From Bacteroidales bacterium OttesenSCG-928-B11 (GTDB lineage Bacteria; Bacteroidota; Bacteroidia; Bacteroidales; WCHB1-69): a stretch of DNA of 46,224 nucleotides. Below, piece after piece: positions 3,438 through 36,147 of this stretch (the stretch's first letter is position 1; every line of letters starts with the position of its first letter). The notes below the pieces were generated by a model. It worked only from the letters and a program-made list of their open reading frames with translations, searched no databases and was not told where the DNA came from. Where the stretch lies: NCBI GenBank assembly GCA_030267125.1, contig JAJDJJ010000009.1, positions 1-46,224 of the forward strand, in the 5' to 3' direction. Made by a program: the position numbers and the translations under genes.

Positions 3438-4448
3438 CTATTCAATCACCACCACCAAGCTCTGCTCCGTAGGCGCCCAGTTGAAAATAAATTCGGCGTG
3501 AGAACTTGCGTTGCGGACACATTTGTGCGACCGGGGTATGGTGCCCAGCGTATTGCTGTATTCGATGATCGCCTGGCGGGGATAATTAACCGGAATACCA
3601 TGGATGTAGCCCCCATTACTGAATCGACTGGCATGCGGCGAATAACCGGCAATCTCGTTGGTGCCATCAACCAAAAAATACATCTTCACCTTCTTTTCTT
3701 GGACGACAAAAATACCCAATGGCGTTTCATGCTGGTAGGGTGGTCGTTTCACACCGGTAGTCGCGGGATTCATGCTTCGAATGAGCCATTCTCCCTGCGA
3801 TTTTTTCTCTATCGCCGCAATATTTTGGTTTGTGCGATCTACAAAAACCACTTGGCTGAAAGTCACGGTATCGGAAATCAACTTTACAAATTTTTTCGGC
3901 ACCATCCATTCGCCTCCGATATAAACATGTTCAACCAATAGAAAAGCGGACGAATCTGTATCTTTTATAACACGAAGCAAGGAGCCGTCTTCAGCATACC
4001 TGATCGGAGTCACGGTATCTCCGGGGTTGAATAATGGCGCGGATTGGAAACGTTCCACCCCAAACTCATCCTCCATATTCCCATAACGGTTTCGTTTTGC
4101 ATCTTGCGTCAATTCCGCTTCGCCGTTTATATTTTGCCGGTTCCGAACAACTCCCCACCACGTGGGCGTCAACTGTGCCTTTTCGATCGTTTTTAACAAT
4201 TTTTCAACCTGATCCCACTGAAAATGACGGACAGTATCTTTATAGGGATAAGTGTCAAGTAATGTATACTTGTCATACAATAACTCTTTTTTCAAACTGA
4301 TTGTGATGACCGGCTCAACAGGCAGCGTATCTTTCAAAACCGTAGTGTCGACCGTTGTTTCCAGCACCAACTGTTTGTGATTACTTTTTTGAGTACACGA
4401 GTTAACCAGCAAGATCAAGAGGGCGAAAAAATAAATCAACTGCTTCAT
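3438..4448 (-). CDS. L,D-transpeptidase (YkuD) family lipoprotein-like protein
   Basis: Signal 'MKQLIYFFALLILLVNSCTQ'; C-terminal YkuD-like 'IHGIPVNY...GTIPRSHKCVRNAS'; start ATG at 4448 overlaps the upstream stop (ATGA). Confidence 0.8.
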   Translation of the reverse strand: MKQLIYFFALLILLVNSCTQKSNHKQLVLETTVDTTVLKDTLPVEPVITISLKKELLYDKYTLLDTYPYKDTVRHFQWDQVEKLLKTIEKAQLTPTWWGVVRNRQNINGEAELTQDAKRNRYGNMEDEFGVERFQSAPLFNPGDTVTPIRYAEDGSLLRVIKDTDSSAFLLVEHVYIGGEWMVPKKFVKLISDTVTFSQVVFVDRTNQNIAAIEKKSQGEWLIRSMNPATTGVKRPPYQHETPLGIFVVQEKKVKMYFLVDGTNEIAGYSPHASRFSNGGYIHGIPVNYPRQAIIEYSNTLGTIPRSHKCVRNASSHAEFIFNWAPTEQSLVVVIE

Positions 4449-5086
4449 AAAGCGGTATCCCACTGATTATAATGCACTTTTGACGGATCGTATTTTTGTT
4501 TGGGTTTATATTCGCCTTTAACATGCCCCATTGGTATAACACACAAGGGTTTGATATTTTCCGGCAGTTTGCAATTTTCAGACACGACATCCATGCGATC
4601 CTGGTAAGGATATGCCGCCGTCCAAACCGCACCTAACCCCAACGCTTCCACTGCCAACAGGATATTTTCCGTAACCGCTGAACAATCAATTTCCCAGTAG
4701 GATGATTGCGTCGTGTCGCCACAAACCACGATGGCAACGGGCGCTTCTTTTAACATCTTTGCGTATGGCAGCCTCTCCCCCATATCATCCAAGATTTCCC
4801 GTTGATCCACCACGATAATTTCCCACGGTCGGGCATCGCGACCGGAAGGCGCTGCCATACCCGCTTTAACGATCGTCTCCAGATCCTCTTTCGAAATCTC
4901 TTTGCCCGGAATATAATCCCGCACACTCTTGCGTTCGTGGATATTGGCCAATACCGCCTCTTTGTTTGAAATAGGTTCCATAATTTCTGTTTTTTTAACA
5001 TTCTTCAATCTGATAAAAAGCACGATGGATAATGCGATAAATAGCAAGCATAGCACTTGATAAACGATGGTGGTACTATTTTTCAT
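4445..5086 (-). CDS. nitroreductase family protein with N-terminal membrane anchor
   Basis: 'ERKSVRDYIPGKEISKEDLETIVKAGMAAPSGRDARPWEIIVV' nitroreductase fold motif; N-terminal TM 'VYQVLCLLFIALSIVLFIRL'. Confidence 0.88.
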   Translation of the reverse strand: MKNSTTIVYQVLCLLFIALSIVLFIRLKNVKKTEIMEPISNKEAVLANIHERKSVRDYIPGKEISKEDLETIVKAGMAAPSGRDARPWEIIVVDQREILDDMGERLPYAKMLKEAPVAIVVCGDTTQSSYWEIDCSAVTENILLAVEALGLGAVWTAAYPYQDRMDVVSENCKLPENIKPLCVIPMGHVKGEYKPKQKYDPSKVHYNQWDTAL

Positions 5087-6251
5087 TTTTTTTGCTTTTG
5101 ATATTTTTTAAAGAAAAGGATCGGACTATTTCCAACAATTGACCGGTTGGGCATAAAATATGGCACCACGGCCGGCTAATGAAAACGGAAAGGATAGTGA
5201 ATAATCCCGCAATCACTAATGAAGCAGCCGAAGCTGATTTAATCATAAAGGCCGAAAAAGGTTCAAAAGATGCCAAATCGGAAATCACCCCAATCAGTAA
5301 TAAAAAAATGATGATAAAAAGATAACACCTCCTGATATTGTAAGCTTTTCGGGGCAATTTGATCTTTTTCTTTTTTATTTTCCCCGCTATTTCCTGAACG
5401 GCGCCAAAGGGACAGAGCCAAGTACAATAGAAGTGTTTCCCGAAAATAAGCGGGATCAGGACAGCAACGAGGGCGAGCAGAAGCAACATCCATTGTGTAA
5501 ATGGCGGGAAACCGTGCGCAATCCAAGTCTGAAAAGTAGCTAACGAAAGAAAATTTCCTTGCCAAAAACCGAGCACAACGACAGAAGCACCCAACAGTAT
5601 AATTCTCGTTTTTTTACATTTTTTTGGGTTGAAAAAGGCGAAAATTGCCCATGCGATTACTAATAACGCCATAATATTCCGGATAATTTTCGAGATTTCC
5701 GATTTACCAGCATAGGAACTCTCATCATAAACTGTCAATCTCGTTCTCAACGAGCTACTAATAGCATTGGAGCTAAGCGTTGCACCTGAAATAGCGTCAA
5801 CATCCTTTGCAATAGCTTCTCCAACAGTACATCCATTCCACGAATCAAAAAATCCTTTACGGGTGATCCGGTTAACATAACTTACGGTTTCCCTATTCTC
5901 AAGGAGTTGAGTGCCAATAATTTTCCCATCATTGTCTAATGCTATCAATAATGGAGTAGGTCCGGCGAATCCGTAAATTCCATCGGAGTAAGGTGATGAG
6001 AAGAGCAGACGCCCTAACGGTTGATTCTCCGCATCATAGACTTCCACGTATGATGAATCAATGGCGGCTAATGATGCGGCATCGGGGAAAAAAGTGATGA
6101 CACGATCATCGATGCTGGGAGTCTGCGGCATATTTTGTGGTAGTTCATCCACATTACCAAACTCCTTGTTGCTAATCGCGACAAGCACAATGACACCAAC
6201 AAAAATTGCCAATCCTAATAATTTGGAAAGAATGGCGCTTCTTCTCGACAT
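5076..6251 (-). CDS. FMN-binding domain / NosR-NapH-like membrane Fe-S protein
   Basis: FMN_bind motif DAISGATLSS, several TM helices, two CxxxCP motifs (CTWLCPFGAV, CHILCPTGQL); likely start MSRRSAIL at 6251. Confidence 0.85.
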   Translation of the reverse strand: MSRRSAILSKLLGLAIFVGVIVLVAISNKEFGNVDELPQNMPQTPSIDDRVITFFPDAASLAAIDSSYVEVYDAENQPLGRLLFSSPYSDGIYGFAGPTPLLIALDNDGKIIGTQLLENRETVSYVNRITRKGFFDSWNGCTVGEAIAKDVDAISGATLSSNAISSSLRTRLTVYDESSYAGKSEISKIIRNIMALLVIAWAIFAFFNPKKCKKTRIILLGASVVVLGFWQGNFLSLATFQTWIAHGFPPFTQWMLLLLALVAVLIPLIFGKHFYCTWLCPFGAVQEIAGKIKKKKIKLPRKAYNIRRCYLFIIIFLLLIGVISDLASFEPFSAFMIKSASAASLVIAGLFTILSVFISRPWCHILCPTGQLLEIVRSFSLKNIKSKKNEK

Positions 6252-6253
6252 AT

Positions 6254-6904
6254 CTACCTCATCCAACAATTAACGATTTCGCCAATATAGAATTTGTGGA
6301 CATCTTGTTCTTCGGGATAGAGAGAAGACTCTTTTGTCAAGATGTCATTCGTTGTAAAATATTCTTTCTTAAATAAATCCGCATATAATTTCTTGCATTC
6401 GATCACAAGATACGCTTCTTTAAAATAGACTGTGCCGTTTTCAGTAAACTGCGGGGTTAGTCCGGCAACCTCTGCTTTATTCTTATCCTGATGATCCCGC
6501 CCTGACGTTGTGCCACAATAGTTTAACACTTCTCGGTACTCCTCGTCGAAGAAACAGAGCGTGTAGTATTCATTTTCCTCCATAAAACCGAAAGTATGGC
6601 GGCTTGGTCTCACGTAACAAGTAGCTACGGGCCGGCTCCACAATTCGCCAAGTGTTCCCCAACTGGCAGTCATCGTGTTATACATTTCTTGGTTACCGGC
6701 GGAAATCAGCATCCATTGATCTCCTATAAGTTCGATCGGATTACCGGGGATTTCCGCAGGATTGATCGCACGGAATGTCTCCCCGCGTAAGGTGTTCGCA
6801 ACATCCTCAGTTTCGGAAGTTACTTCCGGCTTGGGATTATTGTGGCAAGAAAAAGTGAAAACAACTATTAAAATGCCCAATAAAAAGAGGGGTAATTTTT
6901 TCAT
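6254..6904 (-). CDS. flavin reductase-like domain lipoprotein
   Basis: Lipoprotein-type signal 'MKKLPLFLLGILIVVFTFSC'; 'MTASWGTLGELWSRPVATCYVRPSRHTFGFMEENEYYTLCFF' resembles flavin reductase/flavoredoxin family. Confidence 0.8.
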   Translation of the reverse strand: MKKLPLFLLGILIVVFTFSCHNNPKPEVTSETEDVANTLRGETFRAINPAEIPGNPIELIGDQWMLISAGNQEMYNTMTASWGTLGELWSRPVATCYVRPSRHTFGFMEENEYYTLCFFDEEYREVLNYCGTTSGRDHQDKNKAEVAGLTPQFTENGTVYFKEAYLVIECKKLYADLFKKEYFTTNDILTKESSLYPEEQDVHKFYIGEIVNCWMR

Positions 6905-6906
6905 AC

Positions 6907-7476
6907 TTATTTCCAGCTATTCAGATGAATTTTACTCTCATCATATTTATCTTTCGGTTTTTCATCCGAGTCCGGATAACCCAAAGAGATTACATTCAAC
7001 GCAATCACACTCCCCGGCAGATTTAACACTTTATTCATCTTGATCACATTCTCCACACCAATAAATTTGTTTGGATAGATGCCAACCCATACGGCACCTA
7101 AGCCAAAAGCCTGAGATGCGATCATGATATTTTCGGATGCGGCAGCACAATCCTGAATCCAAAAATCGCCGCCTGCGCCCTCCAATGTTTGGGTCATATC
7201 ACCGCAAACCACGATTGCTCCGCCGGCTTCAGCTAACATTTTCCCATGAGGCAAAATATTGCCTAATTTTTTTAAGATATTACTATCCGTAATGGCAATA
7301 AAAGCCCACGGTTGACGGTTTTTTGCCGTAGGAGCCGCCATACCGGCCTTAATTAATTCATATAAAACATCTTGAGGTATGGGTTTATTGGGAATATAGT
7401 TCCGAATACTGCGACGGTTCAATATTGTTTGAAGTACGATTTTCCCGTCATTACTGATGGTGGTTTTATGATCCAT
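6907..7476 (-). CDS. nitroreductase family protein (cytosolic paralogue)
   Basis: 'NRRSIRNYIPNKPIPQDVLYELIKAGMAAPTAKNRQPWAFIAI', no signal/TM; paralogous to 4445..5086. Confidence 0.9.
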   Translation of the reverse strand: MDHKTTISNDGKIVLQTILNRRSIRNYIPNKPIPQDVLYELIKAGMAAPTAKNRQPWAFIAITDSNILKKLGNILPHGKMLAEAGGAIVVCGDMTQTLEGAGGDFWIQDCAAASENIMIASQAFGLGAVWVGIYPNKFIGVENVIKMNKVLNLPGSVIALNVISLGYPDSDEKPKDKYDESKIHLNSWK

Positions 7477-7542
7477 AGCTTGTTATTGTAAATTGTTTAA
7501 TTTAAAAGAACGAAATAAAGGATTAACATGTTCAACAATCGG

Positions 7543-7574
7543 CAAAAGTACTCTTTTTTTTCTATTCATACAAA
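7543..7574 (-). promoter_or_regulatory. candidate promoter of the nitroreductase/flavin operon
   Basis: On the minus strand: TTTG (7574-7571), 20-nt spacer, TACTTTTG (7550-7543); fits the -33 TTTG / -7 TAnnTTTG consensus. Confidence 0.6.
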
Positions 7575-34534: not shown

Positions 34535-35362
34535 ATGATAATGAAAACAATATTTAATAATATTCCCCACTGGATTATTTATCATTCAAAACGTGGCAAA
34601 TTAACGTTTTCGAGACGTGAACTCGTTGCAGATTTTCCCCAACTGTCGGAACAAACTATAAAAAACAACTTAAACTTATTGATAAAAAAGGGAGAAATAT
34701 TTCCTGTTTTTAGGGGTTTCTACTCTGTAATTCCTATCGGCTATGCCCTTATAGGTATTGTGCCCCCCGAATTTTATATTGACGATTTAATGAAATATCT
34801 CAATCGCCCCTATTATGTCAGCCTGTTAAATGCTGCAGCACTTTATGGCGCTGCACATCAAAAGCCTCAGGTATTTTCTGTAATTACAACGTTGCCTACA
34901 TTGAGAAATACAACAAAGGGAAACACTCAAATTAATTTTATTTCTACCCGTAAAGATATTCCAAAAGAATGGCTCAAATCATTCAGAGGGGAAAATGGCG
35001 ATTTTTATGTTTCAAAACCAGAATTAACTGCAGCCGATTTAATTACCTTTCAAAAAGAAATTGGCGGACTAAATCGAGCTTGTACTGTGCTTTATGAACT
35101 TATGGAAATTGTAAGATTTGGTAAATTAGATAAATCCTTTTTTGATTATGTTCCTACCTCTACAATTCAGCGACTGGGTTATTTACTTGAGAATGAATTA
35201 GAACAAGTAAAACAAGCTGATATTTTATTTGCTAAAGCACAAACGCATAATTGTAAATTTCAAAAAATCCCTTTAAAGTATAGCAAGCCTACGATTGATT
35301 GTGGAACAAATAAAAAATGGAAAATTATTATTAACGAAGATATTGAAATTGATAATTTATGA
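34535..35362 (+). CDS. type IV toxin-antitoxin system AbiEi family antitoxin
   Basis: N-terminal wHTH 'KLTFSRRELVADFPQLSEQTIKNNLNLLIKKGEIFPVFRGFYSVIP', 'YYVSLLNAAALYGAAHQ'; ATGA overlap with AbiEii. Confidence 0.9.
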   Translation: MIMKTIFNNIPHWIIYHSKRGKLTFSRRELVADFPQLSEQTIKNNLNLLIKKGEIFPVFRGFYSVIPIGYALIGIVPPEFYIDDLMKYLNRPYYVSLLNAAALYGAAHQKPQVFSVITTLPTLRNTTKGNTQINFISTRKDIPKEWLKSFRGENGDFYVSKPELTAADLITFQKEIGGLNRACTVLYELMEIVRFGKLDKSFFDYVPTSTIQRLGYLLENELEQVKQADILFAKAQTHNCKFQKIPLKYSKPTIDCGTNKKWKIIINEDIEIDNL

Positions 35363-36147
35363 TACCTGAAAGAGCAATAAAAGAATGGTCGGAATTTCTT
35401 CCATGGAAAATAAAGGAATATGTTGAACAAGACCTTGTGATTTGTCGTGCTTTATGTGCCATATTTAATGATGAATATTTGGCAGAACATTTAGCATTTC
35501 GCGGTGGGACAACACTTAATAAATTATATTTGAATCCACAACCGCGATATTCGGAAGACATTGATTTAGTACAAATCAATGCAGAGCCAATCAAGAAAAC
35601 AATGGAAAGAATACGTAATGTATTGGAATTTCTTGGGAAACCTGTAGTTAAACAAAAACTCCACAATAATACTTTGATTTTTCGTTTTTACTCTGAAATT
35701 CCTCCTATAATTCCAATTCGACTAAAAGTTGAAATCAATACTCGTGAGCATTTTAATGTTTTAGGACTGATACATTATGATTTTCACGTAAACAATCAAT
35801 GGTTTTCAGGAAATTGTAAAGTAACAACATACCAATTGGAAGAATTACTCGGAACAAAACTTCGAGCATTGTATCAACGCCGCAAAGGACGCGATTTGTT
35901 TGATTTATGGAAAGCAATGACTACGCAAAGAGTCGATATAGGGAAAATTATCCATTGTTATCGTGAATATATTGATTTTGCGGTTGATAGCCCACCTACT
36001 CAAAAAGAATATTTGTTAAATATGGAACAAAAAATCAAAGACGAAGAATTTTTAGGTGATATCGAAATGTTATTACGTCCAAATGAAGAATACAATCCAC
36101 AAGAAGCGTGGGAGTTTGTAAAAAAAGAATTGATTGAAAAATTGTGA
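35359..36147 (+). CDS. nucleotidyltransferase AbiEii/AbiGii family toxin
   Basis: 'HLAFRGGTTLNKLYLNPQPRYSEDIDLVQI', 'LLGTKLRALYQRRKGRDLFDLWKAM'. Confidence 0.93.
   Translation: MIPERAIKEWSEFLPWKIKEYVEQDLVICRALCAIFNDEYLAEHLAFRGGTTLNKLYLNPQPRYSEDIDLVQINAEPIKKTMERIRNVLEFLGKPVVKQKLHNNTLIFRFYSEIPPIIPIRLKVEINTREHFNVLGLIHYDFHVNNQWFSGNCKVTTYQLEELLGTKLRALYQRRKGRDLFDLWKAMTTQRVDIGKIIHCYREYIDFAVDSPPTQKEYLLNMEQKIKDEEFLGDIEMLLRPNEEYNPQEAWEFVKKELIEKL

Follow-up and report, generated by a model that had tools for sequence, protein, structure and literature searches.

A predicted flavinylated NapH-like membrane protein as a probable electron source for exported nitroreductase and flavin-reductase-like proteins in a Bacteroidales bacterium

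The main text of Meheust 2021 (PMC8238504) reports NapH-like FMN_bind systems in 2465 clusters and leaves the reaction of the majority undescribed. These systems are proposed there to act as electron modules, and quinol is the donor usually proposed. Here we describe a related locus in a window of 46,224 nucleotides (the whole stretch of DNA that was analysed; contig JAJDJJ010000009.1 of Bacteroidales bacterium OttesenSCG-928-B11, assembly GCA_030267125.1). Its membrane protein, P0003, shares with the systems in that text an N-terminal extracytosolic FMN_bind domain, a Fer4_5 transmembrane part and an apbE gene in the same genome. We propose that P0003 probably forms one extracytosolic electron-transfer unit with the products of the two flanking genes, P0002 and P0004, and powers these exported enzymes, which belong to the nitroreductase (NTR) and flavin-reductase-like (FR) families.

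Table 1. Coordinates of the operon and of the sites within it, numbered from the first base of the window
Feature	Position	Strand	Description	Basis
Promoter TTTG-N20-TACTTTTG	7543..7574	(-)	Bacteroidota-type, predicted	Read from sequence
P0001	6907..7476	(-)	Predicted cytosolic nitroreductase lacking signal and anchor	
P0002	6254..6904	(-)	Flavin-reductase-like (FR) lipoprotein, predicted extracytosolic	PF01613, lipobox
P0003	5076..6251	(-)	TM1, extracytosolic FMN_bind and five further TM helices, two CxxxCP motifs; NapH-like	
T158 codon	5778..5780	(-)	Predicted flavinylated Thr of DAISGAT	Motif and homologue alignment
CxxxCP no. 1 (C276, C280)	5412..5426	(-)		Cysteines invariant among 13 homologues
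CxxxCP no. 2 (C363, C367)	5151..5165	(-)		Cysteines invariant among 13 homologues
P0004	4445..5086	(-)	Nitroreductase (NTR) with N-terminal signal anchor, predicted extracytosolic	
P0005	3438..4448	(-)	YkuD L,D-transpeptidase lipoprotein	Pfam E 4.2e-12

Five overlapping or abutting minus-strand open reading frames span positions 7476 to 3438 (Table 1). The overlaps amount to 11 bases between P0003 and P0004 and 4 bases between P0004 and P0005, and the GC content of the operon (0.432) is close to that of the remaining window (0.423). In the predicted promoter, TTTG (7574-7571) is followed by 20 bases and then by TACTTTTG (7550-7543), an arrangement that fits the TTTG/TAnnTTTG consensus of Bacteroidota. 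The first-pass annotation had read the same five genes behind this one promoter, and the product types that it gave in order were recovered as the Pfam domains Nitroreductase, Flavin_Reduct, FMN_bind with Fer4_5, Nitroreductase and YkuD, all of which exceed the gathering cut-off. Its proposal that the five genes together constitute an electron-transfer operon holds for P0002, P0003 and P0004, on the strength of conserved co-occurrence and gene fusions, but not for P0001 and P0005. The three findings that it had named as contrary to its proposal were all absent. Elsewhere in the window, a plus-strand gene downstream of the operon (1263-2555) encodes an HdrD-like protein in which a CCG cysteine-rich domain is accompanied by cysteines of the ferredoxin type, and a homologue of the AbiEii-type nucleotidyltransferase toxin (type IV toxin-antitoxin) lies at 35359-36147.

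P0003 combines an FMN_bind domain (PF04205, E 2.8e-12) with a Fer4_5 domain that matches in two stretches (PF12801, E 3.9e-18), and hydropathy gives it six transmembrane helices. The flavinylation motif reads DAISGAT, and the CxxxCP motifs previously noted in this membrane protein could be placed at C276/C280 and C363/C367. Among 13 homologues G156 and A157 are invariant and residue 158 is T or S, leaving SGA(T/S) conserved. The protein falls below the NapH/MauN cut-off (56.1 vs 213 bits), and AlphaFold returned a pLDDT of 43 for P0003 (from a two-sequence alignment) and of 38 for P0002 alone. We infer that P0003 would carry covalent FMN at T158, attached by ApbE of the same genome. Whether such a gene is present had been posed as a question, and one apbE was found elsewhere in the source assembly, unlinked to the operon (C92:58004-58831, E 5.5e-84). 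The assembly also encodes a second FMN_bind protein, which is NqrC-like and lies beside an NqrB-like gene; because NqrC is another likely client of ApbE, the presence of apbE alone is no proof that P0003 is modified.

P0002 (PF01613, E 6.8e-14, 52.7 bits vs a cut-off of 27) starts with the lipobox-type signal FTFSC, and its extracytosolic site would argue against the use of NAD(P)H. The sidedness of P0004 (PF00881, 80.3 bits vs a cut-off of 23.5) is less direct. Its N-terminus is one hydrophobic helix with one K/R residue before it and four after it, a charge pattern that, taken alone, suggests the opposite, non-exported orientation. However, among its nearest relatives in other genomes of the order, L081, L082, L083 and L084 start with lipoprotein signals and L173 with a signal peptide; P0004 and these proteins sit in a supported clade. 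Because we weigh these relatives above the charge bias, P0004 is predicted, very probably, to face the outside, which agrees with its original description as envelope-exposed. NTRs with lipoprotein signals are also found with no P0003-like neighbour in the fetched stretches (L081-L084, L086, L089, L090, L093 and L095).

Order-level genomes were searched with P0003 and its alignment, and the neighbourhoods of the core relatives were fetched; the core loci number 41, of which 40 satisfy the stricter threshold set for tree building. An NTR is adjacent (within 3.5 kb) or fused in 17 of these 40 loci and an FR domain in 11, eight of which are FR-NTR fusions. One locus (L176) has an anchored Old Yellow Enzyme (OYE) instead of either, and an NTR, FR or OYE is adjacent or fused in 20 of the 40, plus the window. 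The chance of an NTR per locus, taken from the NTR density in the window's own genome, is ~1.9%, which gives the NTR linkage a P of ~2e-19 across loci that are not fully independent and of ~1e-9 when they are collapsed to families. The partner-bearing loci are scattered over the P0003 tree: explaining the presence of a partner takes 5 changes on the best tree, and no fewer than 3 when only supported branches count. The neighbourhood comparison that the first-pass annotation had recommended thus finds the FMN/NapH-like protein with an anchored NTR and FR across many family-level groups. In the other half of the P0003 relatives NTR and FR are absent nearby, and the module therefore also serves other partners. 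The P0003 profile at E 1e-45 has no match in five further genomes of the family to which the window belongs, and the distribution is therefore patchy.

Fusions join the same three protein types. In addition to the FR-NTR fusions, a P0003-like protein is fused to an NTR in L039 (603 aa) and to an FR domain in L178 (622 aa), so all three pairings of the P0002, P0003 and P0004 types occur as single polypeptides somewhere. Each of the two membrane fusions is known from one genome; the junction in L039 is gap-free, with nine N further on, within the NTR part, and the L178 sequence contains no N. Both have exactly one extra (seventh) transmembrane helix ahead of the enzyme domain. If the N-terminus is inside and the FMN domain periplasmic, the seventh helix puts the enzyme domain on the FMN side.

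Several relatives of P0003 lie in other settings. In L176 (3437-6067) the FMN_bind/NapH-like gene is followed by a gene for a TM-anchored OYE (PF00724), with a divergent HxlR-like gene; this is the same module with a different enzyme. Searches of the class and the phylum at E 1e-40 returned solely distant relatives, in other contexts. A distant P0003 relative in L187 (2541-9307) is part of a run that also encodes an HmuY protein, a TonB receptor and a CbiX chelatase-like protein, which suggests a heme- or metal-linked flavinylated system, and L186, L188 and L189 appear by sequence to resemble this run. Further distant relatives (L185:3187-6110 and L184:4986-8071) lie beside proteins that open with a Tat-like RRDFLK sequence and carry double 4Fe-4S domains, putative enzymes resembling the reductive-dehalogenase type.

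We hypothesize that P0003 would accept electrons, probably those of quinol, at the membrane and that these would run via the NapH-like helices and the CxxxCP metal sites to the covalent FMN that ApbE would attach at T158, on the outer face. From the FMN, electrons would pass to the exported FMN enzymes P0004 (the anchored NTR) and P0002 (the FR-like lipoprotein), which could thereby function in the absence of NAD(P)H. Since this cofactor is not expected beyond the cytosol, exported NTR and FR proteins would need another donor, for which P0003 is the obvious candidate. Neither menB nor PF02621 (futalosine pathway) has a match in the 75.7%-complete source assembly, despite its NqrB/NqrC-like genes; because these searches of an incomplete assembly were negative, a menaquinone pool of the organism's own is unproven. 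Judged by midpoint potential, flavin is not a clearly favourable acceptor for electrons from menaquinol. The final acceptor would probably be a small electrophilic organic compound of the nitro, quinone or enone type, and its reduction may represent detoxification or a respiratory sink. HxlR regulators adjoin L040 and L173 (by Pfam), and a similar protein adjoins L176 (by eye, from sequence similarity). In B. subtilis, regulators of the HxlR/DUF24 type act as sensors of quinones, diamide and aldehydes, and the nitroreductase YodC is under their control (PMC6943732). By analogy, the HxlR-type neighbours at these three loci give a weak lead that substrates may be electrophiles.

The fact that five genes with overlapping frames form a single operon, and that P0001 resembles P0004, could indicate that all five cooperate, with P0001 oxidising NAD(P)H and feeding P0003 from inside while the L,D-transpeptidase targets the cell wall as part of that process. 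We consider this improbable. P0001 (PF00881, 77.3 bits vs 23.5) is 44% identical to P0004 and is a P0004-like paralogue without an export signal. The NTRs of other P0003 loci, including both of those in L163, are anchored or signal-bearing, with no unanchored counterpart to P0001, and P0001 as a cytosolic donor is retained as a weak rival. No YkuD homologue occurs in any other P0003 locus examined (41 core loci), and on this ground we reject the L,D-transpeptidase as a member of the module; P0005 is a lineage-specific passenger. The best explanation treats both P0001 and P0005 as passengers in the same transcript or as local additions.

It is likewise improbable that the exported NTR and FR are independent of P0003, clustering with it through the same stress response and using diffusing reduced flavin or some other donor. 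Many genomes that lack a strong P0003 match do have lipoprotein NTR relatives, so an NTR can have another donor, but the P0003-like fusions to NTR and to FR, with a helix count adjusted for the same side, speak against such independence. Most characterised NTR, FR and OYE proteins are reductases, and the HxlR-type regulators suggest electrophile stress; both points make it unlikely that electrons flow in reverse, with the NTR and FR oxidising an envelope substrate and P0003 passing electrons into the quinone pool or the cytosol. In favour of reversal, the main text of Meheust et al. mentions the possibility and also associates NapH-like modules with ethanol oxidases (PMC8238504). We favour the unit of P0002, P0003 and P0004 in which P0003 supplies the exported enzymes.

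As a tentative generalization, which we regard as a serious possibility, one flavinylated NapH-like module may power interchangeable exported NTR, FR-like and OYE enzymes in envelopes of the Bacteroidales type. In such a scheme, enzyme families described elsewhere as dependent on NAD(P)H would reduce electrophiles outside the cytosol without it. A NapH-like flavinylated system would thereby gain named partner enzymes, backed by the fusions in all three pairings, and there would be a possible electron source for nitroreductases that are exported in the order, apparently Bacteroidales, to which gut bacteria belong. Reduction of nitro compounds and quinones outside the cytosol of gut bacteria would matter for the metabolism of drugs and for tolerance of stress.

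The first-pass annotation had suspected that this combination is under-described. The membrane part belongs to a class already described (PMC8238504). For the pairing with NTR and FR, the literature searched, with subscription journals mostly outside it, held no relevant earlier account of exported nitroreductases or of NTR, FR or OYE paired with an FMN/NapH-like protein, and the word nitroreductase is absent from the main text of PMC8238504. Compared with the NapH-like flavinylated systems of that text, the partners here are exported NTR, FR-like and OYE proteins. Structures 3KWK and 3M5K match P0004 strongly (E 3.8e-64 and 1.4e-54) and were deposited as a putative NADH dehydrogenase/NAD(P)H nitroreductase, under record titles that name no electron donor or export role. 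NosR and PceC, of nitrous oxide and organohalide respiration, resemble P0003 in that an FMN_bind and CxxxCP membrane protein is thought to feed an extracytosolic reductase. P0003 differs from NosR in scoring 54.4 bits against the NosR equivalog cut-off of 1000, in having no match to the extra ferredoxin domain and in having no nosZ-like gene seen in its neighbourhood. In the flavinylated fumarate-reductase-like enzymes (urocanate, methacrylate and fumarate reductases) FMN_bind likewise passes electrons to an extracytosolic flavoenzyme; their enzymes belong to PF00890, whereas those described here belong to the NTR, FR and OYE families.
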